Shown one piece after another: positions 2,706 through 50,008 of a stretch of DNA of 64,000 nucleotides. Numbering within the stretch: position 1 is the stretch's first letter; each line of letters opens with the position of its first letter. The DNA is from Pleurostoma richardsiae (lineage: Eukaryota; Ascomycota; Sordariomycetes; Calosphaeriales; Pleurostomataceae): positions 620,001 through 684,000 of the forward strand of contig JANBVO010000014.1 in the NCBI GenBank assembly GCA_030052745.1, in the 5' to 3' direction. The translations under genes were made by a program, and so were the position numbers. Under the pieces are notes generated by a model. That model made no database searches. It saw only the letters and a list, made by a program, of their open reading frames with translations, and was not told where the DNA came from.

Positions 2706-3887
2706 ATGGCCACCACACAGACACAAACCCAGACTGTGGCCCCGGCCGAGGCCGAGAAGCCAGTAAAGCTCGAGATCAACGCCCGGATCTTGCCTCCAAC
2801 CGTGAAATATGAAGGGATGAATATCTCATACGAGCGTCTGGAGGAGGCTTACCACACGGAGTGGCCAGAGCGCAAGCATTTGGAGGTCCCGCAGTTCACG
2901 GCCGACGCGAATCCCGACGACGTAGTCGAAGGTCTCAAACGGGTAGGAGGCGTTGTCGTTCGTGGAATCGTATCTCAGGAATCTCTGCAGCAGATGGAAA
3001 AGGATATTCGGCCAGCCCTCGAAGCGGATGAACCTTGGGATGCTGGCGACAACTTCTTTCCGCCCACCACTCGCCGAGCCTTTGGTCTCATTGGCAAGTC
3101 TCGGGCGTTCGCATTGGACATCATCGGCAACGAGCTCTACCAGGCCGTCTGCGAGCAGTTCCTAACGACCAAGTCTTACCCCTTCTACGGGAACCGCAAT
3201 AACATTAATGTGTCGCCGCCGCAGGTGAACAACACCATCGCATTTTCGGTCCGCCCGGGAAACAGCTTCTCGCAGCCGCTGCACCGTGACGACGACATCC
3301 ACTATGCCGACCGACCCCGTGTCGAGAAGTACCCCGAGCCACCCAACCTGCGCGGAGAATACGGCATCGGCTTTTTCGTGGCCGGCACCAAGACAACCAA
3401 GGCAAATGGAGCCACGCGATTCATCCCGGGGAGCCATCTTGAGGCAACTGTGCAGCCGCCGGATGAGGCCTTTGCCCACTACGCTGAGCTCAACCCCGGG
3501 GATGGTTTCATAATGCTGTCAAGCTGTTACCACGGTGGCAGCGCGAATACTACCAAGGATGAGGAGAGGCTCCTGTTCAGCTGCTTCATGTGCCGCGGCT
3601 GGTTGCGTCAGGAGGAGAACCAGTTTCTCTGTGTCCCACTAGACGTTGCTAGGAGCCTTCCTGTCAGGATCCAGAAATTGATGGGATATGCTACCAGCGA
3701 GGTAAGAGATCCACTCTATACCACCCGAAGTCATACAAAGCACAGGGACTGATTTGCCTTTTTTACGTAGCCGATGCTTGGATGGGTAGACTTCAAAGAC
3801 CCTCGCGGCGTTCTGGCCCCTGAAGAAGCCGAGCGTGTTTCTCACAGGAAAGACAGGTTGAAGGTGGAGGAAGAGCAGGCTCAGTAG
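2706..3887 (+). CDS. Phytanoyl-CoA dioxygenase (PhyH) family Fe(II)/2-oxoglutarate enzyme
   Basis: Two exons, 2706-3701 and 3771-3887, join in phase 0 to give 370 residues. PhyH enzymes use non-haem iron and 2-oxoglutarate to hydroxylate or desaturate small molecules. The iron-binding H-x-D is visible in QPLHRDDDIHY (about residue 196), with the typical NGATRFIPGSH stretch around residue 240. The distal iron histidine lies in CYHGGSAN and a likely 2-oxoglutarate-binding arginine lies just after it, before CRGWLRQEENQFL. All catalytic elements appear intact. The substrate cannot be read from sequence; fungal relatives act in natural-product synthesis and in catabolism. It lies between a divergent transporter and the dimethylformamidase homologue on the same strand. 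An N-hydroxymethyl or N-dealkylation step feeding the amidase is an attractive but untested idea. A second, broken family member lies at 16765-17499. Confidence 0.9.
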
Positions 3888-4709: not shown

Positions 4710-7210
4710 ATGTCTACAGTGTATCCAGTGCCGGAAGACTATCCTAAGGAGATTATCGGCTATGCACAGCCATTCATCGCCAGTCCAGGTGATACGGTAG
4801 ACATCAAGGTACTACTTCCATAACTACCACTTAGCTTGATGTCAGTAACGGACAATTGGAGTGACAGGTTTCTTGCACTGAGTCGGAATACAAGTACCGG
4901 GTACTCCGCTTCCTCCAAACGGGTTATGCGAGTCCCGATGGACCTCCCCAGGATGTAGAGGAGATCACCGGAATTGCGCCGGGGACTCGGAAGGGGAGAT
5001 TCCAGCTAGCTCATGCGGGGTCCTACGCTCTGCTTGAGGATATCGGATTTCGTCCCGTTGACAGCGGTGTGAGGCTGGCATTCTATGCACAGCCGTGGCT
5101 GGTCGAGTGCGACCATATCCAGACTCTGGTCTCGACGCTTGATGCGTCCACGAACGCCGGGATAGCCGTCGTGCTGACTGAGAAGGGCACTATTGACGTA
5201 TGGATCGGGCTCGGAGACGCCGGTATTCAGGTCGTGCCATCCGGGTTTAAGCCTGCGCAGCGACGCTGGGTCAAGATCGATGTGGAAGTGTCGGCTGCAT
5301 CCGTGCGCCTCGACTTTAAACCAGTGAGCCGCATGAATGAACCGGCTGGCAAGGCGAGCGCGGCGGAGGCCACACTGAAAGGCGCCTTTAAGTCGTGTTC
5401 AGGCGAGAACACACAGCTCCTGTTGGCTGCGTCGCTGGTCAAGTCCCCTGCAGACAAGGTTCAGCACCATGTGCCCCTGAACAAGTTCAATGGGCGATTA
5501 GACACTGTGATTATCGAGGCTCTAGGAGAAAACGCGCGGATACTCGCCCATTATGACTTCTCCATTGAGATTCCAAGCGACTTCGTCTACGACGTGTCGG
5601 GCAACCGCCGGACCGGGACCCTTGTCAACGCGCCGAGCAGGGCAATGAAGGGTCACAACTGGGACGGGTCTGAGACGGACTGGACCAAGGCGGCGTACGG
5701 ATATGGCGCCATCCACTTCCACGAAGACGATTTGGATGATGCGGCATGGGACACCGACTTCTCTATTGAGATACCAGAAGGCACCCGGTCCGGCGTGTAC
5801 GGAGTGGAAATCCAGAGTACGGGGTCCGACACCCGTGATACTGTGGTCTTCTTCGTGAGGCCAACAGAAGCCACCACAGCAAAGGTCAGTACTTCATTCT
5901 GCGAGCTGTATGAGGTTTATGTGTGTTGAAAAACGCCACAGGTCGGAGCGAAAGCCGCCATAGTCATGTCCACTTTCACCTATCTGGCGTACGCGAACGA
6001 GAAGATGTTCCGGCCAGACAATCCCGCCAGGGCGGAGGTTCCCCAGGACTTTGAATCGCTGGACTTCTACAAGGATGAGGCCTTCTATAAGCAGGACCGG
6101 CGCGAGGACCTAGGCCGGTCCATCTACGACGTCCACCGGGATCACAGCGGCGTCATCTTCTCGTCGTACAAGCGTCCGCTGCTGAACTGCCGGCCCGACT
6201 ATGTCAACTGGACTGGCCACCGCCCGCGAGAGCTCAGCGCCGAGCTCATAATCCTCGGTTACCTCGAGCGCCTAGGAATCCCCTATGACGTGCTCACCGA
6301 TCACGAGCTACACCTCAGAGGTGTTGCGGCGCTCAGGCCATACACGACCGTCCTCACGGGTTGTCACCCTGAATATCCTAGTCTGCGGTCGTATCTCGCC
6401 TACGAAGATTTCCTGAAGGAGGGCGGCAATATGATGTACCTTGGAGGCAACGGGTTCTATTGGGCGTCAGAGACGGACTGCGCTCGGCCGCATCGGATGG
6501 AGGTCCGACGAGGCGGCCAGGGTGTGCGGACTTCGTATCAGGAGCCTGGCGAGAGAATCCACTCTCTCAACGGTAGGGTGGGGGGCCTGTGGCGTGACTG
6601 CGGGAAGGCCGCGAACTTTATGGTTGGCATCGGATGCTGCGGTGAGGGAACCGGTGCAGGTAAGCCATCTCCCCGTCAAGCTATCCTACCAGCATGAAGG
6701 TCGCGAATGTGTTGTACTAATATTGGAACCAAAGGTGTGCCTTATCGCATGAATACCAAGCTCGGCGAGGCCTACCCGGACCTTAAATCGTGGGTATTCG
6801 CCGGTCTTGTGAAGAACGATGACGACAGGGAGTTCGTCTTTGGCCGCAACGCCCTTGGCGGCTTTGGTGGGGGAGCCTCGGCCGACGAGATCGACCGCGT
6901 CGACTTCAAGTACGGCTCCCCCGAGAACATCGTCGTGCTCGCCTCCTCGACGGGCCACCCGGACACGTTCGGGCTGTTCCCCGAGGATTCGAACTTCCCG
7001 ATGCTCAAGACGTTGGGCACCCAGACGGACTTGATTCGCTCGGACATGACCTATTATGAAACGAGCGGCGGCGGCGCGGTGTTCTCCGTAGGCAGCATTA
7101 GTTGGGATCTGGCAGTAGGGTGGAAGAACTATGACAACGATGCTGCAGTGGTGACGGCAAATGTCCTGAGGAGGTTCGTAAGAGGGCCGGCATCGGCTTT
7201 GAAGTCTTGA
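4710..7210 (+). CDS. N,N-dimethylformamidase large (beta) subunit-like amidohydrolase
   Basis: Four exons (4710-4808, 4868-5884, 5942-6659, 6735-7210) join in phase into 769 residues, close to the roughly 760 residues of bacterial DMFase large subunits. Residues 1-340 form the accessory beta-rich part. SGVYGVEIQSTGSD to the end is the catalytic C-terminal half, with TYLAYANE, YDVHRDHSG, RPLLN, LTGCHPEY, MYLGGNGFYW and GGLWRD. The bacterial enzyme binds one iron through two Tyr and one Glu, which I recall as Tyr399, Tyr440 and Glu521. Here Tyr386 or 389, Tyr434 and Glu516 fall at nearly the same spacing, so the site looks intact. DMFase hydrolyses dimethylformamide to dimethylamine and formate. 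The fungal substrate is unknown, and a small N-substituted amide is an inference. The bacterial small subunit has no visible counterpart here. Neighbours are a PhyH dioxygenase and a cupin. Confidence 0.85.
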
Positions 7211-8906: not shown

Positions 8907-10732
8907 ATGGCAGACCAAGGGGAAAAAATCAAAGTCGCAGACAGAGACGGTGGAGTTCTCGAAAGCGGTCCAGATGCATTTCCTGAAAAGGGCGAAGTGG
9001 CCGTCATCGATGATAAAGCTATCCGGGACTTCTATGGCAAGAGTGTTGAGGAAGCATACAGGCTAAAGTCTGAACTTGTCAGCCAACATCTTGAGGAAAT
9101 TGGCATGGGGAAGTGAGCAGACATTCGAGCGATGAGAGGGACTTCGCAGTAACTAACAGGTAATGCAGGTTTCAGTGGCTCCTCTTCGTCGTGAGCGGCT
9201 TCGGCTGGATCGTCGACAACTTCTGGTCCCAGGGAATCAGCGCAGTGCGGCCTCCCATCGCCAATGAGTTTAGCGATGTGTCCAAGCTGAGCTACAGCTC
9301 GGTCGCATACTACGTTGGTCTCATTCTCGGAGCTTCGTTTTGGGGGACATCTTGCGATCTCATCGGTCGCAAGCCGGCCTTTAACGCCACCATCCTGCTT
9401 GGAGGTATCTTCGCCTGCGCTGTTGCCGGAACAAACAACTTCGTGGCTTTCTGTTCTATCTGGGCGGTTATCGGCACTGCTGCTGGCGGTAACGTCCCCG
9501 TTGACAGCATCATGTTCCTCGAGTTTGTCCCTGGAAGTCACCAGTGGCTCCTGACCACGCTCTCCGCTTGGTGGAACTTCGGCCAGGTCGTCGTCGCTCT
9601 GGTGTCATGGGTATTCTTGGCCAATTATGCTTGTCCATCGGACTCCGACTACACAACTTGCCGCAGGGAAGACAATATGGGATGGTATGAAATTCTCTGC
9701 TTGCTTTCTTAAACGTCCGCAAAGCTTACTCCTGATCTCTTGACAGGCGTTATATCATGATCACTCTGGGGGCTATTGCAATTGCATTTGGCCTTATCCG
9801 GATCCTGATCTTCAAAATCCCGGAGTCACCGCGATATCTGCTGTCCAAAGGCCGGGACGCTGAAGCTGTGGAGGCCGTCAACTACATCGCACGGTACAAC
9901 GGAAAGCCTGAGACCCTCACAATCGGCATGCTACAGTACATTGATGCCCAGCTGGGTCAGCCAGCCCGGGCCGACCCTAATAGTCCTGAAGGCAAGAAGC
10001 ATGACGGTCACATGTCACACATGGACATCATCAAGGACAACCTCAAGTCCTACAATATCAGCATGTACCGAAAGCTGTTCTCTGGTAGGAAGCTGGCGCA
10101 GCACACGTCAATTACTTTCCTGATCTGGCTCACGATCGGCATTGCATACCCTCTCTACTTCGCATTCATCACCTCATACTTGGAGACCAAGTCCACGTAC
10201 TCTGCCAGCTCTTCCCTGTCACACACGTACAAGATCTACTGTATCGTGTCGGCAGTCGGAGTCGTCGGTCCGCTCGCCGCTGGCTTCTGCGTCGAGACGC
10301 GGTTGGGAAGACGCTGGATGATGGCCCTTTCCGCCATTTTGACCGGCGTCTTCTTGTTCGCGTACACGCACGCGAAGACGGAGGCCGCCGACATCGGGTT
10401 CCAGTGCGCGACAGGTGTTCTTGGCAACTTCGGTAGGCAAATCCCGTTTCATTATTAAGCCTCTTCGTCGACGAGTTGTCATTTACTGACCGAATGTAGA
10501 ATACGCCATCATGTACGCCTTCACACCGGAAAGTTTCCCTGGTAGTCTCAGGGGCACTGGTACCGGCACAGCAGCGACCCTACTTCGACTAGGAGGCCTT
10601 GTCGCATCCCTCATCTCGACCTTTGCGGGCTACACCATTGTCCCGATCTATGCTAGCGCAGCCCTCTGGATCGCCGTCGGCGTGGTTTGCTTCGGACTGC
10701 CGTTCGAGACTCACGGGCACGCATCTATCTAG
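8907..10732 (+). CDS. MFS permease, sugar/aromatic-acid transporter-like
   Basis: Four exons (8907-9112, 9169-9684, 9747-10432, 10500-10732) join into 546 residues with about 12 predicted membrane spans. The family signature between spans 2 and 3 is seen as DLIGRKPAF. AGGNVPVDSIMFLEFVP follows in span 4, and PESPRYLLSKGR marks the central loop, as in sugar-porter and SV2-like MFS carriers. TPESFPGSLRGTGTGTA opens the last exon and is typical of the metabolite:H+ symporter-like branch. It is a proton-coupled plasma-membrane importer by family; the substrate is not readable. The soluble N-terminus of about 85 residues is hydrophilic. It closes the run PhyH, DMFase-like, cupin, permease, all on the plus strand, so it is a candidate for importing that substrate. 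Confidence 0.9.
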
Positions 10733-11770
10733 GATTTCGTGCTTTTATCTGCGACGGCTTCTCTTATTTTCGTCCGGAATGAGAACCTCCAGTTGGCTGA
10801 TGTTAAGGGACTAGATTGAGAAATTGCTTCATCGACTTCGAGTCTTTGAAGGCCGGAAGTCAAATAAAGTGTGTGGAATAATCGCTAATTAGATCCTGGT
10901 CTCCGCTCCAAAGTATCGCACATGTCCGTCTTTGCTGTATAATCGCAGTCGTTTCGTGATAAGGTGTGGATCGGTGGTCGGCCCGGGCACAACCTCGGAG
11001 GACACCGGCGATCAATAGACACTGCTCAATTGGCCGAGGACTCCAAAGTGGGATGCTCGGAAACGCACCCCTCCACGTGGAGTCTCTTGACGCTGAGCAC
11101 GTCTTATGGTTGAGGTGGAGTGTAGTTATAGCTATCCCGTTACAATCGACGTCTATGGGCAGACACGGTTTCCAGTACTGAACTCGAAATGCAATGCCAT
11201 CTCGAGACCTGGTCCTCTTCAAGATAACCTAACCTAACGTTACAGGCCGCTGGCTCTGTTCTGCCAAGGACAACTCCCGGCCCCCACCTTGCCGGATGCC
11301 GGACATGGGCCTCAGAGTGGGGACCACTTCAAGAGTGGGAGCGGGAAGGCTTTCTTATCAGCTTCAGAGTGTTCCTAGTGCTTACCGGCTTGGCCACTGA
11401 GTGCGGGGAGACGGAGCTGATAGGGCCTCTCCAGGAGGAGAGTGCCAGCAACCTATGAGGTGAGAGACGTTCAAAAGCACCTGCACCCAGTCTACGTCAG
11501 TGGCCGTTAGGAGAAGAGTGGGAGTCCAGCTGCTATACGCCCATGGAATGGGGCTCTGAACCAGCGGCGCGCATGCGTCCTCGGAGCCCCGAAGCCATGA
11601 GGCGAATCTTGGATGGCATTTGACCCGTGTCTCCCATCTCCCACTTGCTTTGGTCAAAGACCCCTCGCCTCACAGGGTGGGCTCCAGCTTCATTGAAACA
11701 CCCTCTACACGGGCCGTTTGCCATCTCAAGACGTGCCAGGCACGAGTGAGCATCACTGTAACCCCGTGAC
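10733..11770. promoter_or_regulatory. Upstream region of xanthine dehydrogenase
   Basis: About 1 kb without a supported gene. It holds GATAAG at 10958-10963 and CTTATC at 11354-11359, matching AreA/NIT2 sites. TCGG-N6-CCGG at 10995-11008 differs by one base from the TCGG-N6-CCGA site known for the purine-pathway activator UaY of Aspergillus. Nitrogen and purine control would suit the downstream gene but is inferred from motifs only. Confidence 0.35.
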
Positions 11771-14700
11771 ATGGCTCTGCCCAAACCCCCAGTCGCCTCC
11801 GCAGCGGCATCGGTGTCTGCCCAGCCCGATGCCCAGGCCCTCGCACCTCTCATCGAGACGACTTATCGCTCGCCGCTCATCACCTTCTTCGTCAACGGCT
11901 CAAAAGTCGTCCTCAACAACCCTAACCCTCGATGGACGCTCCTCGACTACATCCGCGCCCAGCCCCGGCTCAAGGGCACCAAGCTGGGCTGCGGCGAGGG
12001 CGGATGCGGTGCCTGCACCGTCGTCCTGCAGGTAGGCTCGGCTGGCGCGGACGGCCGGAAGCGGGTGCGGCACCTCGCGGTCAACGCGTGCCTATTCCCG
12101 CTGCTCGGTGTCGATGGCAAGCATGTTATCACAGTGGAGGGCCTGGGCACGGCTGAGAACCCCCATCCGCTGCAGGAGCGGATCGCCAAGATGCACGGGT
12201 CGCAGTGCGGGTTCTGCACGCCGGGGATCGTCATGTCGCTGTATGCGCTGGTGCGTAACTCGTACGACCCCGAGAGGAAAGTGTTCAGGCTCTCGGAGAG
12301 GGACATCGAGATGGAGGGTCACCTTGACGGGAACCTGTGCCGATGTACGGGCTATAAACCGATCCTACAGGCCGCTAAGACGTTTGTCACCGAGGACCTG
12401 AAAGGCCGTGTAGATGAGAGCTCGGAAGCGAGGCCGAGCGAGTTGGAGTCCGAGATATCGCCTCCGAAGGATCTTGTTGCAACATCGTCACAGTCATGCG
12501 GAAGACCTGGAGGATGCTGCAGAGATGGAAAGTCCACGACGGCATGCGGAAGTACTGGAAAAGATCAAGCCGTGTCATCATCCGAGAGTCTCACCCGAGA
12601 CGCGGACAGCTCGTCACAAGAAGAATCCGGAACGGATGACACGTCATTAAGCAGCTCCCCGAGTACGCCTGACGAGAAGAAGCAGCATCTACCCAAACCC
12701 AAATCAGGGCAGGCAACACAACGGCCTCTCTTCAAGCCATATGAGCCAGGGACCGAACTCATCTTTCCACCAGCGTTATGGAGCTACCGCAAGCAGCCTT
12801 TGTGCTACGGCGACGAGCAGGTCCTATGGTTCCGGCCCACGACGCTAGAGCAACTCTTAGATCTGAAGAGCGCATACGCGCCGGCCAAGCTGGTCGTTGG
12901 GTCAAGCGAGATTCAGGTGGAGATCCGGTTTAAAGCCTCCAAGTTTCCCGTCATGGTCTACGTTGGAGACCTGGAGGAGCTCAAGGTGTCGCCGCTGCCC
13001 ACAGCAGAAGCGGCTTGGGATGCAGCTAGCGAGATAGTACTAGGTGCTAACACCTCCCTTACTGATATAGAGCAGATCTGCAAGGAAGGTTATGCACGGC
13101 TCGGAAAGAGAGCACTCGTGTTGGAAGCGCTCCGCAAGCAGCTGCGGTATTTCGCTGGCAGGCAGATCCGCAATGTCGCCTCGTTGGCGGGTAACATCGC
13201 GACAGCGTCCCCCATCTCCGACGCAAACCCTGTTCTTCTGGCGTCCGGCGCGACAATCTTAGTAGCCAGAAAGGGCGACTCTGTGTTAGCTCTACCCATC
13301 AAGGACTTCTTCCTGGGCTACCGCAGGACGGCACTGCCTCCCGATGGAGTGATCACGCATATCAGGATTCCTCTGCCGCCGCCGTCTGCACGCGAAGTGA
13401 CGAAGGCGTATAAGCAGGCCAAAAGGAAGGACGACGACATTGCGATCGTCACTACAGGTTTTCGTGTCCGACTTGACGGCGACGGCAAGGTGGAGGACAT
13501 AGCTCTTGCGTTTGGTGGTATGGCACCAACGACGATTGCTGCATTTAAGACGCAGAAGGCTCTGGCAGGACTGAAATGGAATGAGGAATCGACGCTGGAT
13601 GTCGGTATGGGATCGCTAGGACAGGAGCTCGCGCTCTCTTACGATGTCCCAGGAGGCATGGCCACCTACCGTACTACCCTCGCCTCTTCTCTCTTCTTCC
13701 GCTTCTGGCACGAGTCTTTACATGAATTTGGGCTGAAGGAGCTCAACCCAAGCATCACCGAGATACATCGCGAGATATCGAAGGGCTCTCGCGACAGCTC
13801 CAATTTCATCGAGCAGCGCGTCGTCGGCAAGCAGATCCCTCACCTATCAGCGCTTAAGCAGTGCACGGGCGAAGCCGAGTACGTCGATGACATCCCCCGG
13901 CAAGATGATGAGCTCTTCGGCGGCATCGTCTTCTCCATGAGAGCCCATGCGAAGCTGGTGGACGTCGATTGGTCCCCTGCACTGGCGATGCCCGGTGTTG
14001 TCGGATACCTCGACAAGAACAGCTTGCCGCCGGAACGCAACGTCTGGGGCTCGATCAAGCACGACGAGCCCTTCTTCGCCGACGAAAAGGTCGAATCTCA
14101 CGGCCAAGTGATAGGCATGGTGTACGCTGAGACGGCTCTTCAGGCTCAGGCTGCTGCAAAGGCTGTTAAGGTCACATACGAGGACCTACCCGCAATTATA
14201 ACGATCGACGAGGCTATAGAGGCGAAGAGCTTTCTACCGCATGGGAGAGAGCTCAGAAAGGGCCAGTATGCCCTAGATAGCAACATGGGGGCGATATTCG
14301 AGCAGTGCGACCGGGTGTTTGAAGGAAAGACGAGGATTGGAGGCCAGGAACAGTTCTACCTGGAGACCAATGCGGCGTTGGCGATACCTCACGGCGAAGA
14401 TGGCGCCATGGATGTGTGGTCATCGACGCAGAACACCATGGAGACTCAGGAATTCGTCGCCATGGTCACGGGGGTCACGAGCAACAAGATCAACGCCCGA
14501 GTCAAGCGTCTCGGAGGCGGGTTTGGCGGGAAGGAGTCGCGCAGTGTACCTATCGCGTGCATGTGCGCTATCGCGGCGAAGAAGGAGAGGCGGCCTGTCA
14601 GAGTCATGCTGAACCGCGATGAAGACATGATGACGACCGGACAGAGACACCCGATTCAGCTGCGGTGGAAGATCGGCGTGATGAATGACGGCCGCCTCGT

Positions 14701-16233
14701 GGCTCTCGATGCCGACGCGTACAACAACGCGGGCTTCTCTTACGACATGAGCAGTGCTGTCATGGATCGGTGCTTGACACATATCGAGAACTGCTACGAG
14801 ATTCCTCACGTCTGGGTTCGGGGATATCTGTGTAAAACGAACACCCACAGCAACACAGCTTACCGTGGCTTCGGCGGCCCCCAGTCCATGTACTTCTCTG
14901 AGTCCATCATGAACGCTGTTGCGGAAGGGTTGAAGATGGACGTTGACGAATTGAGATTGAGGAACCTTTATGTTCAGGGGAACGTCACCCCGTTTCTCCA
15001 GAAGATTGACGAGGACTGGCATGTGCCCACCATGCTGGAACAGATACAGAAGACGGCGAACTATCGAGAGCGGAAGGCCAAGGTCGAGGCCTTCAATGCG
15101 GATCCTAAGAACAAATACAAGAAGAGGGGCATATGCATGATACCGACGAAGTTCGGCTTGAGCTTCGCCACCGCCTTGCATCTAAATCAGGCTGGCGCAT
15201 ACGTCAAGATCTACGCTGACGGCAGTGTGCTCCTACACCATGGCGGTACCGAGATGGGTCAGGGCCTGTACACCAAGATGTGCCAGGTTGCGGCTCAGGA
15301 GCTGAATGTACCAATCGAGGCAGTGTTCACACAGGACTCGCAGTCATACCAAGTCGCAAACGCATCGCCAACGGCCGCTTCATCTGGCAGTGACTTGAAC
15401 GGGATGGCGGTAAAGGATGCGTGTGATCAGCTGAATGTGCGACTGGCTCCATACAGAGAGAAGTTGGGCCCGAACGCCTCGATGAAGGAGATTGCACACC
15501 ATGCCTACCGCGACAGGGTCAATCTGGCTGCTAATGGGTTCTGGAAGATGCCCAAGATTGGATATGTTTGGGGTAACTTCAAGGACCCGAAGCCGATGTA
15601 CTACTATTTCACTCAAGGCGTCGGCATCAGCGAGGTGGAGCTGGACCTTCTTACCGGAGACCACACAGTGCTGCGAACTGACATTATGATGGTGAGCCCC
15701 TATTTTACTCCCCTGAATGCGCAATTACTGACACGTCTTTCCAGGACGTCGGCAACTCCATCAACCCTGCGATCGACTACGGCCAGATCGAGGGCGCCTT
15801 CGTGCAGGGCCAGGGTCTCTTCACCGTGGAAGAGTCTCTATGGTTCACTAGGAATGGCAACCTCGCTACAGCTGGCCCGGGCACGTACAAGATCCCAGGC
15901 TTCGCTGACATACCCCAGGAGTTCAACGTCAGCATGCTGCGGCACGACAGCGCCGGCCAGCCCATCAGCTGGAAGCATCTGCGCTCGATCCAGAGCAGCA
16001 AGGGCGTCGGCGAGCCGCCGCTCTTCCTCGGCAGCACCGTCTTTTTCGCTCTAAGGGAAGCAGTCAAGGCGGCGCGCAAGGCAAACGGACTGGATGCCTC
16101 GGACGGCAGGTTCGCTCTTGACAGCCCGGCCACGGCAGAGAGCTTGCGGTGTGCGCTTGGTGATGAGATTTTGAACAAGTCCTTCGTGGCACAGAAAGAA
16201 GGCCAAAAGCCTTTCTTCGTCAGGGCTTCGTAG
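11771..16233 (+). CDS. hxA: Xanthine dehydrogenase (purine hydroxylase I-like molybdoenzyme)
   Basis: Two exons, 11771-15691 and 15745-16233, give 1469 residues. Order: a [2Fe-2S] domain with GCGEGGCGACTVV, then a second cluster region with QCGFCTPG and CRCTGY; a long linker; an FAD domain from about residue 365; and the molybdopterin domain. Active-site residues are in place: the Glu of GGQEQFYLETN (about 860), the Arg of AYRGFGGPQ (about 1030) and the catalytic Glu of KGVGEPPLFLG (about 1395). The enzyme oxidises hypoxanthine to xanthine and uric acid with NAD+. It is about 100 residues longer than usual. The extra length is mainly a Ser/Asp-rich linker around residues 215-330 containing a GRPGGCC motif. 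The nicotinate hydroxylase paralogue HxnS is the main alternative; the active-site surroundings favour HxA. Confidence 0.9.
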
Positions 16234-28871: not shown

Positions 28872-30131
28872 ATGTCGTTTGAATTCGGCACCGAAGTCTG
28901 CCGCCCGGCGTTTGACGACCGGGCGACGCCCAAGATCTCGTATGGCCTTCGATTTCCGGAGGCGGTCGCGCGGCACTGTCAAGACACGTTCTCCAGCTCC
29001 AGGGTCTACGTTATCTGCTCCAGGTCTCTGGCCAAAACAGATGCGCTGCAGCGCCTCACCACAGCTCTGGGAGGCCGCCTCGCCGGCGTGCGCAATGGCA
29101 TCACACCGCACACACCCATCGCCGAGGTCATGGAGACCGTGAATGAGGTCCAGGGCCGCGACATCGACTGCATCGTGACGCTCGGTGCGGGGAGCCTGAC
29201 CGACGCCGCCAAGCTCGTGCGCCTGGCTCTGGCCAACGGGGCCACCACCGAGGAGGACATGAAGTCGCTCTGGGGCACACCGTCGAGCAACCCGGCCTTG
29301 CGCAAGAACATTGTTAAGCCGTCCATCCCCCTGATCCACATCCCTACCTCGCTCTCGGGCGGCGAGTACCAGGCGATTGCTGGTGGAACTGAGTCGGCGG
29401 GTCATGCTAAGAGGACTTTCCATTGCGAGGGTGTTAATCCCGAATTGGTCATCCAGGATCCTGAGCTCTGCCTCACCACGCCGCAGTGGGTGTGGCTCAG
29501 CACCGGCATCCGATCCGTGGACCACTGTGTTGAGACACTCTGTTCGCTACTGTCCAATCCAAAGGGCGACGAGTGGGCGGCAAGGGGGCTGCCAAAGTTG
29601 GTCGCCGGCCTGCTTGACAGCAAGGCGAACCCCACCTCTCTCTCGGCCCGCCGACTCTGCCAAGAGGGCACTGTTGAGGCCATGTGCGCCGTCTCGAGCG
29701 GCGTCCCGCTAGGGGCCAGCCACGCCATCGGGCATCAGCTTGGCCCTCTCGGGGTCGGCCATGGCGAGACCAGTTGCATCCTGCTGCCCTATGTGTGCAG
29801 GTACAACTTGGCCAAAAAGGCAAACGCAGAGCGGCAGGCGACGGTGAGGGACCTGCTCCTACGGCAGAGCCAGGTCCGGGGGCTGCTGGAGGCGAGAAAT
29901 ATTGATGCTGCAACGGTCGACCTGGGTACCATCCTGTACACTATCATCAGGGCCCTAGAGATGCCGCAGTCGCTCGAGGCCGTGGGCATCGGCAGAGACA
30001 AGCTCCCAATACTGGCAAGAAACAGCCTTGACGACATCTGGATTCGGACGAACGCCGTACCTATCACAGAAGAGTCACAGGTTATGGAAATCCTCAACAT
30101 GTGTTTTAGCAGAGAGAAATCTCCATTTTAA
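28872..30131 (+). CDS. Iron-containing alcohol dehydrogenase / maleylacetate reductase-like
   Basis: A single exon of 419 residues. The nucleotide-binding part carries LGAGSLTDAAK (about 97-107, the GGGS-like loop) and IPTSLSGGEYQ. Metal ligands are visible: an Asp and a His in GIRSVDHCVE (about 216-225), and further histidines in GASHAIGHQLGPLGVGHGE (about 281-299). Group III Fe-alcohol dehydrogenases include maleylacetate reductase, which reduces maleylacetate to 3-oxoadipate at the end of hydroxyquinol and resorcinol pathways. The Ser/Gly-rich substrate loop and the short length favour that branch. No intradiol dioxygenase to supply maleylacetate is present in the window. Flavin monooxygenases lie 11-18 kb away. 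Confidence 0.85.
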   Translation: MSFEFGTEVCRPAFDDRATPKISYGLRFPEAVARHCQDTFSSSRVYVICSRSLAKTDALQRLTTALGGRLAGVRNGITPHTPIAEVMETVNEVQGRDIDCIVTLGAGSLTDAAKLVRLALANGATTEEDMKSLWGTPSSNPALRKNIVKPSIPLIHIPTSLSGGEYQAIAGGTESAGHAKRTFHCEGVNPELVIQDPELCLTTPQWVWLSTGIRSVDHCVETLCSLLSNPKGDEWAARGLPKLVAGLLDSKANPTSLSARRLCQEGTVEAMCAVSSGVPLGASHAIGHQLGPLGVGHGETSCILLPYVCRYNLAKKANAERQATVRDLLLRQSQVRGLLEARNIDAATVDLGTILYTIIRALEMPQSLEAVGIGRDKLPILARNSLDDIWIRTNAVPITEESQVMEILNMCFSREKSPF

Positions 30132-31880
30132 TCAAATCCGAGATAAGAAACTCACTAGGATCGGTTAAATGATCACTTGTTCTTGCACGTCCGTGTGATT
30201 ATGGGTAGGCAATGCTCCAACATCACAGTTGCAGCATTTCCATCGTTCTTACCGCTCTAGTGACTTCAGAAGCTGGCGACATAAAGCCCTCTGGTTCAGC
30301 TTGGGTTCAACAAACGCGCATAGGCTATAACTCTGAAAAGTCAGCAATAGAACAGCTAGACGGGGCTTATCTACCTTAGTACATGGCTCTCGGCTTTGTG
30401 GGGAGCTCCATTCGCTTACTAGACTGATGTTTTCAAGCTCCGAACCTGAAGAGATTCATACTCTCGGTCTGCGCTCGTCTTCTCCCAGGTGACCGGAGGG
30501 GCTAATGTTGTGTAAGTCTCTATTCGACCTCTCACAAAATCAAGTGTCACAACATTCAGCTGACATGAGCTCAGCTATTTCTTGTCCACACATTTGACAG
30601 CCATTAGTGTGCCTCGGATCGAGCATGTAGTCATAATCAACGTCGCCGTTTCCCTTTGCAACGGGATCCGCATGGGTGGCGGCGATGTGATCTTCGATAA
30701 TTTGGCGATCACTGCCATTATATCATGATGGCTGGTCTCTTCCAGCGGTCGATCGAGACGGCGGTCACGCCCGGTCTGGCTGCTGGAGTCATCATGTCCA
30801 TCCTCATATATGAACGAGCTTATCTCTCCTCATGGTTAGTCATCCTTCTTACTCGGAACAGGCAATAAATCTTCTAGGGCCGTGCTTACGTTTTCCCGAC
30901 AGAAATGATATGGCCTTCCCCCAACCTAGTAAGCCTTCGAGGTTCGAAGAGCGAGCCAAGGGCACTTGTATCGCCCAGTCGACCTCCTTTGCGTTCTACT
31001 TCATCTACCTGCACTGTGGTCCACTGGTCCTGAAGGCCATGTTGTGGAGATTCTTCATTATAAGTGCTAGGTGGGACTTCCATTCCCTCCTTGCGGTGTA
31101 ATGCTTCTTCGTCAAGACCGCGCACCGTCTTCTCGAAGAGCTTGTCCACCTCTTTGATGGTTAAGAACGCGAACTTGAAGGGGTGCCCAATTTGGAGGGT
31201 TTCAAAGGAACCTAACAAGGTTGCAGCGGTGTGAGATGTTCCCAAGATCTGATAGGACTCATGTCTTAACCGGCACCGGAAGCCTTAAGGCGCGATGGGT
31301 TCTTGCTTGGAGAGGACAGGAAAACAATCCACGCTGTATAGCTTGACTGCACGGCATCCAAGACTCTAACTGAACACGAACAAAACTACGAAGGACAGTG
31401 ACATAACTCCATGTGCTACTACGGGAACAGCAGGGGATTCTGAGGTAATCACGATGGGGTACACTTGAGGTGATGCTCGCTGACCGAAAGAGGTTTAGCG
31501 TGGCTTTCTCCCCGAGTGGTGGCATGTACACGCAACGGCCCGTGCACCACGCGTGCTGACAGGTACGTACCTCGAACCAAGGAGGTGGTTCTCGCGGGGC
31601 TCACCTCTTTGATTAATAACCTGGGCAGGTGCGAAGGTGGTTAGAGGATGGATGCCATGCTTGAAGCGTCAAACACCAAGATGGAGGAGGACAAGATGAA
31701 TCACGAGAAGCACGGTAATTAGAGGCTTGAGAAAGCCATGTAGCAGCCTTCAATCATTTTCGCATTTGCGATCCTGTCTCTCAACTGCCTAGCTCGCCAT
31801 TGTTCCGTTGACGTTTGATTTCCCTAGCAAGTATCTCGCCCCATGCTCTCTCATGTAGGTACCGTGGTTGGTTGAACTGC
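30132..31880. other. Gene-poor region, no recognised gene
   Basis: About 1.7 kb between the dehydrogenase and the Dabb gene. Short frames near 30590-30830 (for example HVVIINVAVSLCNGIRMGG) look partly protein-like but could not be assigned, and they are interrupted. No repeat or RNA feature is seen. Confidence 0.4.
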
Positions 31881-33472: not shown

Positions 33473-34913
33473 ATGTCCGCAGAATCAGCTGGCCGTAGCG
33501 GCGGCGACGATTACACCGGCCCAGATTTGCTTAGGATGGCGTATCGAGGCATGCACACAGAGCTATCGTTGCATCTCGAGCAACGCGGAGCTGTTTTCTC
33601 GGAAGACTCCAACGGAAATACGGCGTTGCAAGTGGCAGCCATGGCAGGTCGCGCAGAAACAATCAAGTTGCTTTTGGAACATGGTGCAGCTCTGCAAGGA
33701 CGAAACAGAGATGGCGATACGGCACTGCATTTGGCGGCAGGGAACCCCGAGGCTGTGGAGGTCCTACTGAAAGCAGGGGCAGATATAGACACGCAGAATC
33801 GAAGACGACAAGCACCTATTATCGTTGCCACAAGTGGGAGACACTATGAATCTGCCAGGATTCTTCTTCGGCAGGGAGCGCTGGTCGACAATTCAGACTA
33901 CGACTGGTGGCCCGCCTTCTACTCTGCCACCATAAGCGGGGAGATTTCAATCATCGAAACAATATGGCGCAGTCACATGGTTTTCCGGGAGTCTTCCACG
34001 TGCATGGTGCACGCTCTGGAAGTTGCTATCGCGTTCGAGTCGACGGATGTGTTAGACCGTATTGCGGAGTTAGAACCACGGGCTGTCCGCCTGCAGGACG
34101 CCGATGGGCATACCATCCTCCATTATGCCGTCCAGAATGCCTCCAGTGAACTGTTGGTCGCGGTCCTAGACCAGGGGCCACGAGTAAACGTGAAGGATGA
34201 CAATCGACAGACCGCCCTATGGTATGCAGTAGAGAAGGGCCGCGTGACATAATGCGGGTTCTTCTTCAGTCCGGGGCTGACATCCAGGCGGCTGATTTTA
34301 CGGGACGGACTCAGCTGCACATCGCTGCTCGGCAGGGCCGTTACGAGGCCATGGCACTCTTGCTCGAGAAGGGAGCCGACGAGAATGCCGAAGACCACCT
34401 CCGCCGATCACCCCTTCACGACGCTGTCGCCGGGAAGAATGCCAGAGCCGTCCGAGTCCTTCTCCTCGCCAACGCAGATATCAACCAGGGCAACGAGATT
34501 GGATCAGCGCCACTCCATTTTGCAGTGAAGGACCTGGAGGTCATGAAAGAGCTTTGCAATTGGAACGCAGATCTGGACCGCCTGGACATGATGGGGCGCA
34601 CTCCTCTCCACATCGCAGTGGCAGAGTCATGCAGCGAAGTGGCGGCTTGCCTTCTCAGGGAAGGGACTGATCCCTACCGGTTCGGCTTGTCGCCATCCCG
34701 GCCATCAACTACGCGGTCAAACAGAACAACCGAGAGATGGTGGGTGTCCTCGTCAGGAACGGCGTCGATGTGAACTGGAGACATGAAGAAGGGTATACCG
34801 CGCTTGACATTGCCAGATGGTGTCAGGAGAATGGGGAAGGCTATGACGATATGGTCCAGATGCTCGTGGACCTCGGAGCCAAATGTGGAAGCGAGTTGCA
34901 GGATGAGGAGTGA
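33473..34913 (+). pseudogene. Ankyrin-repeat gene with two frame breaks
   Basis: The Met at 33473 starts MSAESAGRSGG. It is followed by many ankyrin repeats such as NGNTALQVAAMAGRAETIK, DGDTALHLAAGNPEAVEVLL and DGHTILHYAVQNASSELLV. Reading stops near 34250, but repeats continue at once in another frame from RRDIMRVLLQSGADIQAADF through GRTPLHIAVAESCSEVAACL. They then continue in the third frame from about 34685 (AIPAINYAVKQNNREMVGVL) to a stop at 34911-34913. Together this is about 480 residues with 11-12 repeats. No GT-AG intron explains either switch. Ankyrin arrays bind proteins; the partner is unknown. The strong similarity left in all three frames and the upstream TATA element point to recent loss or to sequencing errors. 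Confidence 0.75.
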
Positions 34914-45217: not shown

Positions 45218-45781
45218 AGGTGGGATAGTGATATCCCAGGGCATGCGGACCTCATCAAAGCGCATCACAACAACACCGGTCCGACGCGTATTGGGGTAGT
45301 GAAGGGGGCAAGATGCTGCAGGGAGCCATAAACCAAAATCAAAGCAATCTCATCCGTACCATTCTCGTTCACTTCGATATTTAGCGCGGCGTTGCCCGGG
45401 TCATCAGGGTCCACCAGATTGTGAGACCAAGATAGCTCCCTATGCAGTGAAGCTTCGGAGGACTCCGTAGAGCCACAGACTCCACCCCCTCCGGCCTTCG
45501 ATACACAGACCTGTCTTGCGTGGCTAGTCACTGCGCTTAACTCCATAGACTGGTAGACCATAGAGATCAGGCAACTCATCTCTTGGCTCCAATCTGTGCG
45601 CCCCTGGCGAGCGGGCAGCTTCACGGCTGGCGCCGTGTTAGCAGCATTACGCTATCGTCGCCGTGGATCACACCATCCCGCTATCTATCCATATCGCGCG
45701 CGGCTCCGGATATCCGCACTGCACTCAGCTTCATTTTCCTCCGCGAAGCACAATAGGCAATAATTCTTGCTGATCATAGCC
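45218..45781. other. Intergenic region, no gene seen
   Basis: About 560 bases between the permease and the FAD monooxygenase. No supported feature. Confidence 0.45.
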
Positions 45782-47193
45782 ATGTCAGCAAAAAAGTTCA
45801 AGATCGTGGTCGTCGGCGGTGGCCCGGTGGGCTTGACAGCCGCCCACGCGCTGTACAAGGCGGGCATCGACTTCGTGGTCCTGGAGTCGAGGCACGATGT
45901 GGTCGTGGATCGCGGTGCGGCCATGGTCCTGGGCCCTAACAACCTCAGGGTCATGCGCCAGCTCGGCCTCTACGACAGAATCATGGGCATTGGCGCGGAG
46001 TCGCTCTACGCCAAGGGCTTCCTCCTCAACGGGCGTGTGTTCAAGGACGTTCCCGAATTGCGGACCCTCAAGAGGAAGTGAGTTGCTGGGATTGCATGCT
46101 GGCGTACCTATCGATCTCGACATGTCTTCATTTTTGCTGACCTGAGTGAAGTCATGGCGTGGGACTGGTGACGTTCCATCGCGCACAGCTCATCCAAGAG
46201 TTCTACGACGCCCTGCCAGATGAGGCCAAGGCGCGCTACCTGACGGGCAAGAAGGTCAGCGGCATCGAGTCCGGGGACCAGGGCGTCAAGGTGACCTGCA
46301 CCGACGGGAGCACCTACGAGGGCTCCATCGTCCTCGGCGCGGACGGCGTGCACAGCATCACCCGGCGCATCATGCGGCAGCTCGCCCTGGCGGAGGACCC
46401 GAAGCGGGACTGGGACCCGGAGAACCCCTACAAGGCCGAGTACAGGTGCATGTGGAGCAGCTTCCCGCGCCCGCCCGACTCCGCGCCGGGCCAGGCCTTC
46501 GAGACGCCCGGCCAGGACCTCTCGCTCATGTTCCTGACGGGCCGCGACCGCGGCTGGATCATGCTGTACGACCGGTTCCCCGAGCCCACCTCCGAGCGCC
46601 ACACCTACACGGAGAAGGATGTCGAGGCCTTCGCGGCCAGGCTCGCCGACTACCCCGTCAACGAGACCCTTAAAGTGAAGGACGTGTTCGCGCAGCGGCA
46701 GACGTCGGGCATGGCCGACCTGGAGGAGGGCATCGCGGAGCACTGGAGCTGGGGCCGGATCGTGCTCGCCGGCGACGCGTGCCACAAGTTCACGCCCAAC
46801 GCCGGGCTGGGGCTGAACAACGCCATCCAGGACATCGTGGCGCTCTTCAACGGGCTGCACGCGGCGGTACTGGCTGCGCCCGACGGCCAGCCCGATAACG
46901 AGACGCTCGCGAGGGTGTTCAAGACGTACCGGGAGCAGCGGCTGGAGGCGCTCAAGGGCGATTACGGCCGGTCGGCGCTCGTCACGCGGCTGCAGGCGTG
47001 GGCGACCCGCCTGTATTGGTTCCTGAACCGGTTCATCTTCTCGAGCTCGTTCGTTGCTAATTTCATGATCAACTACGTCGCGTCGCCTGGGCTTAGGAAG
47101 GGACTTGTGCTTGACTACGTGCCAGCCACGGACCTGCCAGCGGGCAGAGTGACTTGGGAGCACGAGCTTCCGAAACCGCTGGCTGTAGAATAG
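45782..47193 (+). CDS. Class A FAD-dependent monooxygenase
   Basis: Two exons, 45782-46077 and 46152-47193, join in phase into 445 residues. All three fingerprints are present. The dinucleotide fold is VVVGGGPVGLTAAHALYKAG (9-28). The DG motif is LGADGVHS (about 155-162). The GD motif is LAGDACHKFTPNAGLGLNNA (about 310-329). These NAD(P)H-dependent enzymes hydroxylate or epoxidise aromatic or terpenoid substrates. A hydrophobic stretch (YWFLNRFIFSSSFVANFMIN, about 392-411) near the C-terminus could anchor the protein to a membrane, as in meroterpenoid epoxidases. With no terpene or polyketide synthase nearby, a catabolic hydroxylase is equally likely. The internal GC content is distinctly higher than in the adjoining intergenic DNA. 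Confidence 0.88.
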
Positions 47194-47723: not shown

Positions 47724-50008
47724 TCATGCATGCGTCGCACAGCACCCCGCCATCTGCCCTCCCTCACCTCCAACACTCAGCCCCTGCACGCCCTCCACGA
47801 CCCCGTTCAGCGCCACGCTCTGGTTGACGCTCTGCTCGCTGGGCGGGACGTCCAGCGCGGGGTTCTTGTCAAAGAAGTTGACCGGGCGGAACATGACGCG
47901 CAGCATCTCCGCCGGCATGACCGGGAAGTCCTCGACGCGCGGGATGTGGTTGATGCCGAAGTTGACCCACACCACGGGGTCGCCGTCCGCCGCGACGTCC
48001 TCCCCCCTGCCCGCCCAGCTGCGCACCCCGGTGCCGCCGCGGCTCTGGTTCGTGTACAGCCCGCCCGCGTACAGCTCGCCGTCGGCGTACTTGGTCACGT
48101 AGATGCTGCGGTCGGCGAACTCGGCCCGCCGCCGGTGGTACGACTCCTCGTCGGCCAGGATGGGCTGCATGGGCGGCACGTGCACCTTGTAGGCCACCGG
48201 CTGCCCGTTGACGCCGCTGCGCACCGCCGGGTTGGTGATCTTGTACACGCGGCCGCGGGCCACGTCCAGGTCGTAGCCGCCCGCGGCTGTCACCGGCGTG
48301 CGCTCCACCGTGTAGCCCACGCCGTGCGGGTTGTCCGGCCCACGCGGCATGGCGACGGCGTCGTCGTACACGACGGCGTTGCCGTGGCCCGCGACCATGG
48401 GGTCGACGCGCAGGGAGAAGAAGTGCTGGTGGTAGCCGGCCAGCACGCCCGGGTGCACGACGGTGCCGTAGGGGTGGGGGGTGGTGGTCAGGTCGACGTC
48501 CACGGGCTGCGTGGACAGGATGCCGGTGGCGCGCACCTCGTAGGTGACGTCGCCGGCCAGGTTGAACACCCAGGCGAGGATGTACTCGTAGTTGCTGACG
48601 GTCAGGATGGTCTGCAGTACGAGCTCGCGGTTGCGCACGACGCAGGCGCGGCCGGTGCGGTAGTTGGTGTGCTTCCACAGCAGGCCCGAGTCCTGCTCGT
48701 GGATGCAGATCACGTTGGGATAGGCGACGGCGTCGCCGGCGCTGTCGGAGAGAACGCCGGAGATGTAGTAGATGGCACCCAGGCAGTCGCAGCCCAGCTT
48801 GAGGTTGTTGGCCATCAGGCCCGCGCCGACGTCGCCCAGGTCGAAGGCCTGCTTCTTGTGGAAAGGGTGGCGCGGGTCGCCGTAGGGGATCGCCATGTCG
48901 GACAGTGAGAGCCGGTAGAAGAGCGGCTTGCCGTCGTAGTGCACGTCGTACAGCACCATACCCTCGCGCTGGTTGAAGCCCACCTTGAAGGCCCACTTCT
49001 GCCAGGCGATGGTGTGGCCCAGCTCCGAGTACTTCTCGACAGTGAAGGAGGCGCCCTCGGGCTGGACGACGCGGAGCGGCTTGAGGTCGGTGCGGAGGGT
49101 GTGCGCTTCGGGGATGTACTCGTTCGGCGGGACGGGCTTCCAGGGCTCGACGGGCTTGACGGTGGCGTCGAGGCCAGTGGGAAGGACGTCGATGCGGATG
49201 ACCTTGAGGGTTGCCGCATCCACGACGGGAGATATGGGTAGTGGGAAGGAGTAGTGGCAGCTGTCGGCCTCGCTAGAGTTCTTGGGGTCGCGCATGTACA
49301 AGAAGCACTGCATCACCCGCTTGTCGTCGTAGAAGAGGCCGTCCTTGACGCCATCGGAACCTGCGTCACTGTCAGCGCGAGCTGGCACATACGGGAGCGT
49401 TGGAACAGACCGTAGATCCAAGGGTCAGAGACGACGACGCTGCCCTCGGGCAGCTTCAGCTTGGCAATCTCGGCCAGGACGCCGGGGTCCTCGAGCATCA
49501 CCTTCTCAATCGCAACGATCTCCTCGCCGTCTCCGTTGGCGTGGATGAAATCGCCCAGCCGGACATTGCTCTCGACCGTTTTTGAGGTGAGATTGACGAC
49601 AGCCTCGTGCAATTTATCCTGCCTCCACTGTCAGCGCGCTGCATTCAGACCACTTTATGAATGCCGGCAATGACTAACGGTGTTCTTAATGTAGTAGACC
49701 ACGAAACTTTTGCGGTCGATATCCTTGGGCTTCTCACCTGCCCGCTCAGCGGCGAGATACGGCACGAGCTCTGCCTTGGGAGGCTCCTGCAGGGTGATGA
49801 CCTTGAACTGGAAGAGGGTGCCCTCCGGCCACTGGCTCTTGATCAGCTTGGAGGACTGCGAGATCTCCTCGCCGGTAAGAGGGCCTAGAGGGTGCGCGGG
49901 ATAAGCCGCGGGCTTTCCGGTGCCAGTGGCTCCGTTGGTGGCGAGGTCGGCCTTTGTGCCGTTCACCGGGACGGCGGCGGGCTCGGCTGCGAGGGCGCCG
50001 GGAGCCAT
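47724..50008 (-). CDS. Copper amine oxidase (primary-amine oxidase, TPQ enzyme)
   Basis: Three exons (50008-49679, 49618-49411, 49360-47724) join in phase into 724 residues. The topaquinone precursor tyrosine lies in the consensus TVSNYEYILAW (T-x2-N-Y-E-Y). Copper ligands are seen in GYHQHFFSLRVD and GINHIPRVEDFPVMP. The catalytic-base Asp is likely within VLYDVHYDGKPLFYRLS. The enzyme deaminates primary amines to aldehyde, ammonia and hydrogen peroxide, letting fungi use amines as nitrogen source. The C-terminus (CCATHA) is not a canonical SKL-type peroxisomal signal, and no signal peptide is seen. Intron 2 starts with GTCTGT, a weak but in-phase donor. Three GATAAG-type sites lie upstream. 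Strong GC bias gives long false frames on the opposite strand. Confidence 0.93.

Follow-up and report, generated by a model that had tools for sequence, protein, structure and literature searches.

A fungal gene resembling the large subunit of a bacterial two-subunit dimethylformamidase (DMFase) raises the question of what such a protein does in a fungus, and in what company. The gene lies in a 64,000-nucleotide stretch of Pleurostoma richardsiae (assembly GCA_030052745.1, contig JANBVO010000014.1, positions 620,001 to 684,000), which was analysed whole and is called the window here. The product of the gene is, in our view, probably a member of the DMFase/acylase family that works as a single-chain Fe(III) amidohydrolase and, together with a PhyH dioxygenase encoded beside it, breaks down an N-substituted amide (Table 1).

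The window enzyme adds one more member to a family that is known and has already been annotated. It matched the Pfam profile PF20254 (DMFA2_C) at 296.3 bits (E 5.6e-88, profile positions 2-373 of 374, curated cut-off 27 bits), and its significant matches in a sequence search of the PDB were the DMFase large subunit (6lvb, 322 bits, residues 16-764) and N-acetyl-(R)-beta-phenylalanine acylase (308 bits), which bears out the original prediction of a DMFase-type large subunit. The predicted four-exon structure was also verified, with introns of 59, 57 and 75 nucleotides, all GT-AG, and a spliced frame that stays open for 769 residues to the stop at 7210. Three PF20254 genes are present in the genome: the window copy and one each on contigs C115 and C57, 48-52% identical to one another. 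Because the intron between exons 1 and 2 occupies an identical position (between K and V, phase 0) in both paralogues, and these are only 52% and 48% identical to the window protein, the gene is a long-standing fungal one. Fungal homologues, with full-length identity of up to 66%, already carry the UniRef/NCBI name 'N,N-dimethylformamidase beta subunit-like'; nothing in the listed entries points to a characterised member.

The residues expected of the iron site are in place. In DMFase, iron is bound by Tyr399, Tyr440 and Glu521, a 2-Tyr-1-Glu site reported as unique for the bacterial two-subunit enzyme, and the mutants H519A, N547A and E657A are inactive (PMC7686228, cited throughout from part of its text). 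Alignment to 6lvb placed Tyr389, Tyr434 and Glu516 at the three ligands and His514 and Asn542 at His519 and Asn547, with Glu663 equivalent to Glu657 by residue count. The intact ligand set of the original prediction stands, as do Tyr434 and Glu516, but of Tyr386/389, given for the first ligand, Tyr386 aligns with the non-ligand Tyr396, and the ligand is corrected to Tyr389. The ligand positions are invariant in all 205 sequences compared (120 listed relatives and 85 prokaryotic), whereas a gap and an Asp each occur once at the Asn542 position, and the Glu663 position shows three gaps. All six catalytic residues are kept in both genomic paralogues. A model of the close relative P0001 has the three-domain fold (Ig-like, pentraxin-like and ThuA-like), with pentraxin and LamG folds matching its residues ~80-295. 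Full-length homology, the three-domain fold (in the P0001 model), the three ligands and the three essential residues are common to the fungal protein and the Paracoccus large subunit (6lvb; PMC7686228), at ~31% identity; with the acylase (PDB 8huy, 8i59, 8i5a) the fungal protein has in common full-length homology, the six residues and a similar fold score.

The new observation, absent from the original prediction for this gene and not found in the literature searched on DMFase, is a pairing with a gene for an Fe(II)/2-oxoglutarate dioxygenase of the PhyH family (PF05721); no paper was found that joins phytanoyl-CoA dioxygenase with dimethylformamidase. In the window the PhyH gene lies 0.8 kb upstream of the DMFase-like gene, matches PF05721 at 71.7 bits (cut-off 22) and encodes His-Arg-Asp followed by a later His and Arg, which by eye gives the HxD...H...R pattern. 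Its nearest solved relatives include the fungal PhyH-family dioxygenases NvfE (PDB 9vmf), SwnH1 and SwnH2 (9osa, 9otb), at 168, 113 and 113 bits, which act in secondary-metabolite synthesis. All three DMFase-like genes of the genome have a PhyH gene within ~5 kb. On C115 its PF05721 match is at 48859-49638, the PF20254 match (45486-46832) being on the other strand; on C57 it is at 29466-30450, the first exon of the DMFase-like gene starting near 34036 with a major facilitator superfamily (MFS) gene in between. The whole genome gave 21 PF05721 matches, several being exons of one gene; assuming 18 PhyH genes, a rough figure from those matches, the probability that one lies within 6 kb by chance is ~0.0055 for each gene, or 1.6e-7 for the three together on the assumption of independence. 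The three linked pairs may, instead of being independent, descend from one duplicated pair. Over matched parts, the window PhyH protein is 52% identical to the C115 copy and 49-54% to the C57 copy, and PhyH genes elsewhere in the genome (C24, C126 and C56; 40-54%) are about equally close.

The pairing recurs in other fungi. We listed 120 DMFase and 120 PhyH matches and compared contig sizes and names by eye. Nine of the 12 closest DMFase relatives among the matches listed (P0001-P0012) have a listed PhyH relative that comes from the same organism and whose contig is equal in size. Gene tags are 1 to 3 apart in five of these nine pairs (DMFase/PhyH: Coleophoma, 13606/13604; Cladophialophora immunda, 09903/09904; Capronia coronata, 05069/05072; Meristemomyces, 001481/001480; Aspergillus cavernicola, 182332/182334); the tags of A. 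californicus are far apart, both on a 106-kb contig, and the remaining three pairs are without tags. Among the other 108 listed rows, P0021, P0033, P0053, P0056 and P0080 match by contig, with tags two apart for P0053; P0036 matches by contig, but with a tag 238 away, and a common large contig is weak evidence of linkage when alone. Across 15 pairs, DMFase and PhyH distances are correlated with r 0.63, a value attained in 10 of 2000 permutations; shared species ancestry could also produce such a correlation.

How the pair might work is suggested by the mechanism proposed for DMFase, with an iron-bound water, a Glu base and an Asn that holds the oxyanion (PMC7686228). By analogy with the Paracoccus enzyme, Tyr389, Tyr434 and Glu516 would hold iron, and the iron would activate a water for attack on the amide; Glu663 would serve as base, Asn542 would hold the oxyanion and His514 would assist, so that an N-substituted amide would be cleaved to an acid and an amine. 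From the linkage we infer that the PhyH dioxygenase acts in the same catabolic route, probably oxidising the substrate before or after hydrolysis. The window protein is probably homodimeric, as we assume the acylase, presumably from Burkholderia, to be. The repeated pairing offers a handle on the role of the fungal branch, and if the pair does form one pathway, an iron-based amide-cleaving route would be added to fungal nitrogen metabolism. A more specific suggestion, which we make tentatively and regard as possible but doubtful, is that the conserved fungal pair constitutes an oxidise-and-hydrolyse route not described before, with a natural N-substituted amide or lactam as its substrate.

Several observations count against a single-chain amidohydrolase working with PhyH. 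P0002, P0003 and P0008, the other three of the 12 closest DMFase relatives, have no PhyH relative on an equal-size contig among the matches listed, and one fungal row, P0003, has Arg at the His514 position. The window PhyH protein had no match at E 1e-3 in the frames of 80 prokaryotic loci with DMFase relatives, so the pairing is not common to them. On its own, the large subunit of Paracoccus DMFase shows no activity (PMC7686228), and that a single chain should be active is therefore not a given. Our searches turned up no published activity, metal content or structure for any fungal protein of the family; judged by title and the start of the abstract, the literature on dimethylformamidase or DMFase held nothing on a fungal enzyme, and PMC6380019, on Trichoderma and N,N-dimethylformamide (DMF), makes no mention of DMFase, formamidase or 'degrade'.

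The Paracoccus large subunit needs its small subunit for activity (PMC7686228), whereas searches of the fungal genome turned up none. Two six-frame, single-sequence, intron-blind searches of the whole P. richardsiae genome gave no match for DmfA1 of Paracoccus and at best E 0.615 for the Burkholderia small subunit, a query that recovered clear copies in six of six control records, each with a best E of at most 2.3e-7, and a small-subunit profile gave nothing convincing in the window and seven nearby stretches (best E 4.1). The absence claimed by the original prediction is thus upheld, but its standing as a special feature is not: a small subunit was found at 23 of the 80 prokaryotic loci and none at 57, the acylase PDB entries contain no DmfA1-like chain and are single-chain as in the fungus, and the fungi fall outside the two-subunit group. 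We therefore rejected absence of the small subunit as the key oddity of the locus. Single-chain relatives with the 2-Tyr-1-Glu residues are the commoner form in this sample of 80 loci, and the fungi are a separate clade.

These counts depend on how the loci were chosen and searched. The 80 loci are the best of at least 583 confirmed relatives ranked by match to the fungal query, so the sample leans to the fungal side, and four of the 57 (L010, L020, L041 and L061) have <500 bases upstream and are not fairly scorable. Four sequences from L004, L005 and L008 served as seeds of the search, so that these three loci match by construction, and both L007 and the 23 positive loci came from this seeded search; used alone, the fourth seed (P0124) recovered no convincing relative. 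Small subunits were found at four of five plasmid loci, three of them seeds, the exception being L006. In the PDB, the small-subunit profile matched DMFase entries only and no acylase entry.

Phylogenetic analysis sets the fungi apart from the two-subunit enzymes. In a FastTree tree of 130 sequences (45 fungal and 85 prokaryotic; unrooted, local support), the fungal sequences form a single clade (support 100) and, with 17 single-subunit prokaryotic sequences, occupy one side of a branch (support 97); all 27 two-subunit sequences are on the opposite side, within a 56-member group (support 100) that also holds 29 single-subunit sequences. A mixture-model tree of 57 of the 130, also unrooted and with local support, agrees, uniting fungi with 14 single-subunit sequences at 98 and placing its 16 two-subunit sequences within a 22-member group at 100. 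On the simplest reading of these trees, the small subunit would be a trait of one lineage and the fungi would descend from another. A bacterial origin had been suggested for the gene; the long-stemmed fungal clade beside prokaryotic single-subunit sequences fits an old transfer, and passage from a bacterium to a fungus is plausible, but unrooted trees are no proof of it.

Other substrates and roles must be weighed against the proposed amidohydrolase-dioxygenase pair. Like the acylase, the protein might instead hydrolyse N-acyl amino acids, recovering nitrogen from N-acetyl beta- or D-amino acids, a role that we consider unlikely, although several results lean that way. The best solved match of P0001 is the acylase, both by sequence (330.8 bits versus 318 for DMFase) and by Foldseek E-value; the acylase keeps all six catalytic residues and shows no small subunit; and a two-subunit relative in Burkholderia vietnamiensis lies near genes for D-amino acid dehydrogenase and alanine racemase. 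Acylase and fungal protein are ~33% identical, and substrate specificity is not transferable between them.

A true dimethylformamidase, with the fungus living on DMF or similar small formamides, is harder to credit, and we judge it improbable. DMF is chiefly an industrial solvent and is unlikely to account for a fungal clade that is old. The same six catalytic residues as in DMFase would suit this role, as would the position of Phe693, which narrows the substrate pocket of DMFase (PMC7686228) and is aromatic in 116 of the 120 listed relatives (Phe699 here). Yet the two solved relatives, which differ in substrate, score about the same: DMFase acts on DMF and N-methylformamide (PMC7686228), and the acylase, by its PDB molecule name, on N-acetyl-(R)-beta-phenylalanine. 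The two-subunit homologue AceAB acts on acetamiprid and has no activity on DMF, according to the part of a review available to us, and a second dmfA1-dmfA2 locus of Paracoccus aminophilus is not known to be linked to DMF use. Since substrates differ so widely within the family, DMF is not the default guess. That catalysis has been lost and the PhyH linkage is a leftover of ancient joint duplication is very improbable: co-duplication can keep linked pairs and the three PhyH copies are mutually related, but the pair recurs in other fungi, the listed relatives preserve the ligands and catalytic residues save for gaps, one His-to-Arg and one Asn-to-Asp, and the three paralogues retain all six despite being only 48-52% identical.

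Table 1 Features of the window (positions within the 64,000-nucleotide stretch)
Feature	Position	Strand	Remarks
PhyH (PF05721) Fe(II)/2-oxoglutarate dioxygenase gene, partner	2706..3887 (exons 2706-3701, 3771-3887)	+	Pfam and linkage
DMFase-like gene, exon 1	4710..4808	+	Residues 1-33
DMFase-like gene, exon 2	4868..5884	+	Part of Ig-like domain, then pentraxin/LamG-like domain
DMFase-like gene, exon 3	5942..6659	+	ThuA-like catalytic domain; Tyr389, Tyr434, His514, Glu516, Asn542
DMFase-like gene, exon 4	6735..7210	+	Remaining catalytic domain; Glu663 (DMFase Glu657), Phe699 (DMFase Phe693)
Small cupin gene, 124 residues	7826..8200	+	Just downstream of DMFase-like gene
MFS transporter gene, 546 residues, four exons	8907..10732	+	Neighbour
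Molybdenum hydroxylase frame, xanthine dehydrogenase family	11762..16054	+	Neighbour; HxnS-type FATAL, then His

Further genes lie downstream of the pair. The molybdenum hydroxylase frame carries the FATAL signature of the fungal nicotinate hydroxylase HxnS (PMC5746545, cited from part of its text), whereas the other genomic copy of this family, located on contig C59, carries the FTAL of ordinary xanthine dehydrogenase; the MFS gene resembles transporters named hxnZ in some records. Given these HxnS-like and HxnZ-like neighbours, one guess is that the substrate is a lactam derived from an N-heterocycle. In A. cavernicola and A. californicus, present in both the DMFase and the MFS lists, the nearest relatives of the MFS transporter are on other contigs than the pair, which weighs against that guess. 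The transporter was rejected as a member of the pair, no equal-size contig being found between the 12 closest DMFase relatives and 120 listed MFS relatives (compared by eye; four of the 120 give no contig size), a control that is weak because the two lists have few species in common. The cupin was ruled out as well, and stands outside the repeated pair, because no second copy was found in the P. richardsiae genome.

Neighbours of other family members were also considered. An UNC-93 transporter gene lies near the C115 DMFase-like copy, but UNC-93 was dropped as a common neighbour, the gene at the left end of the window not being among the PF05978 matches. Directly downstream of the C57 copy is an aldehyde dehydrogenase gene (L090 6814-8756), presumably a methylmalonate-semialdehyde dehydrogenase. 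Twenty neighbouring frames from five prokaryotic loci included several kinds of ATP-binding cassette (ABC) transporter, a sodium symporter, a sugar kinase and an alkaline phosphatase, with no shared substrate theme among them; clustering of neighbour frames across the prokaryotic loci was spoiled by wrong-frame open reading frames in GC-rich DNA.

Unusual arrangements of both subunits were seen among the relatives. An alphaproteobacterial contig (L009 4538-10256) and a thaumarchaeal contig (L086 5589-10253), both from metagenome-assembled genomes, each have two large-subunit-like frames close together, one on either strand. On a plasmid of Aminobacter niigataensis (L008 1613-4889), one large subunit lies between a small-subunit gene and a second candidate small-subunit gene, whose likeness was judged by eye and which found no convincing relative when used alone. 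Small-subunit matches in G003:C187 and G007:C76 fall within open frames of 859 and 902 residues, possibly fusions of small and large subunits. On an Agrobacterium plasmid (L007 4281-5936), directly upstream of the large-subunit gene, a branched-chain amino acid ABC permease carries a small subunit fused at its C-terminus; only this one was counted as a fusion, as the long small-subunit frames of L058 and L068 have no Pfam match and may be read-through.
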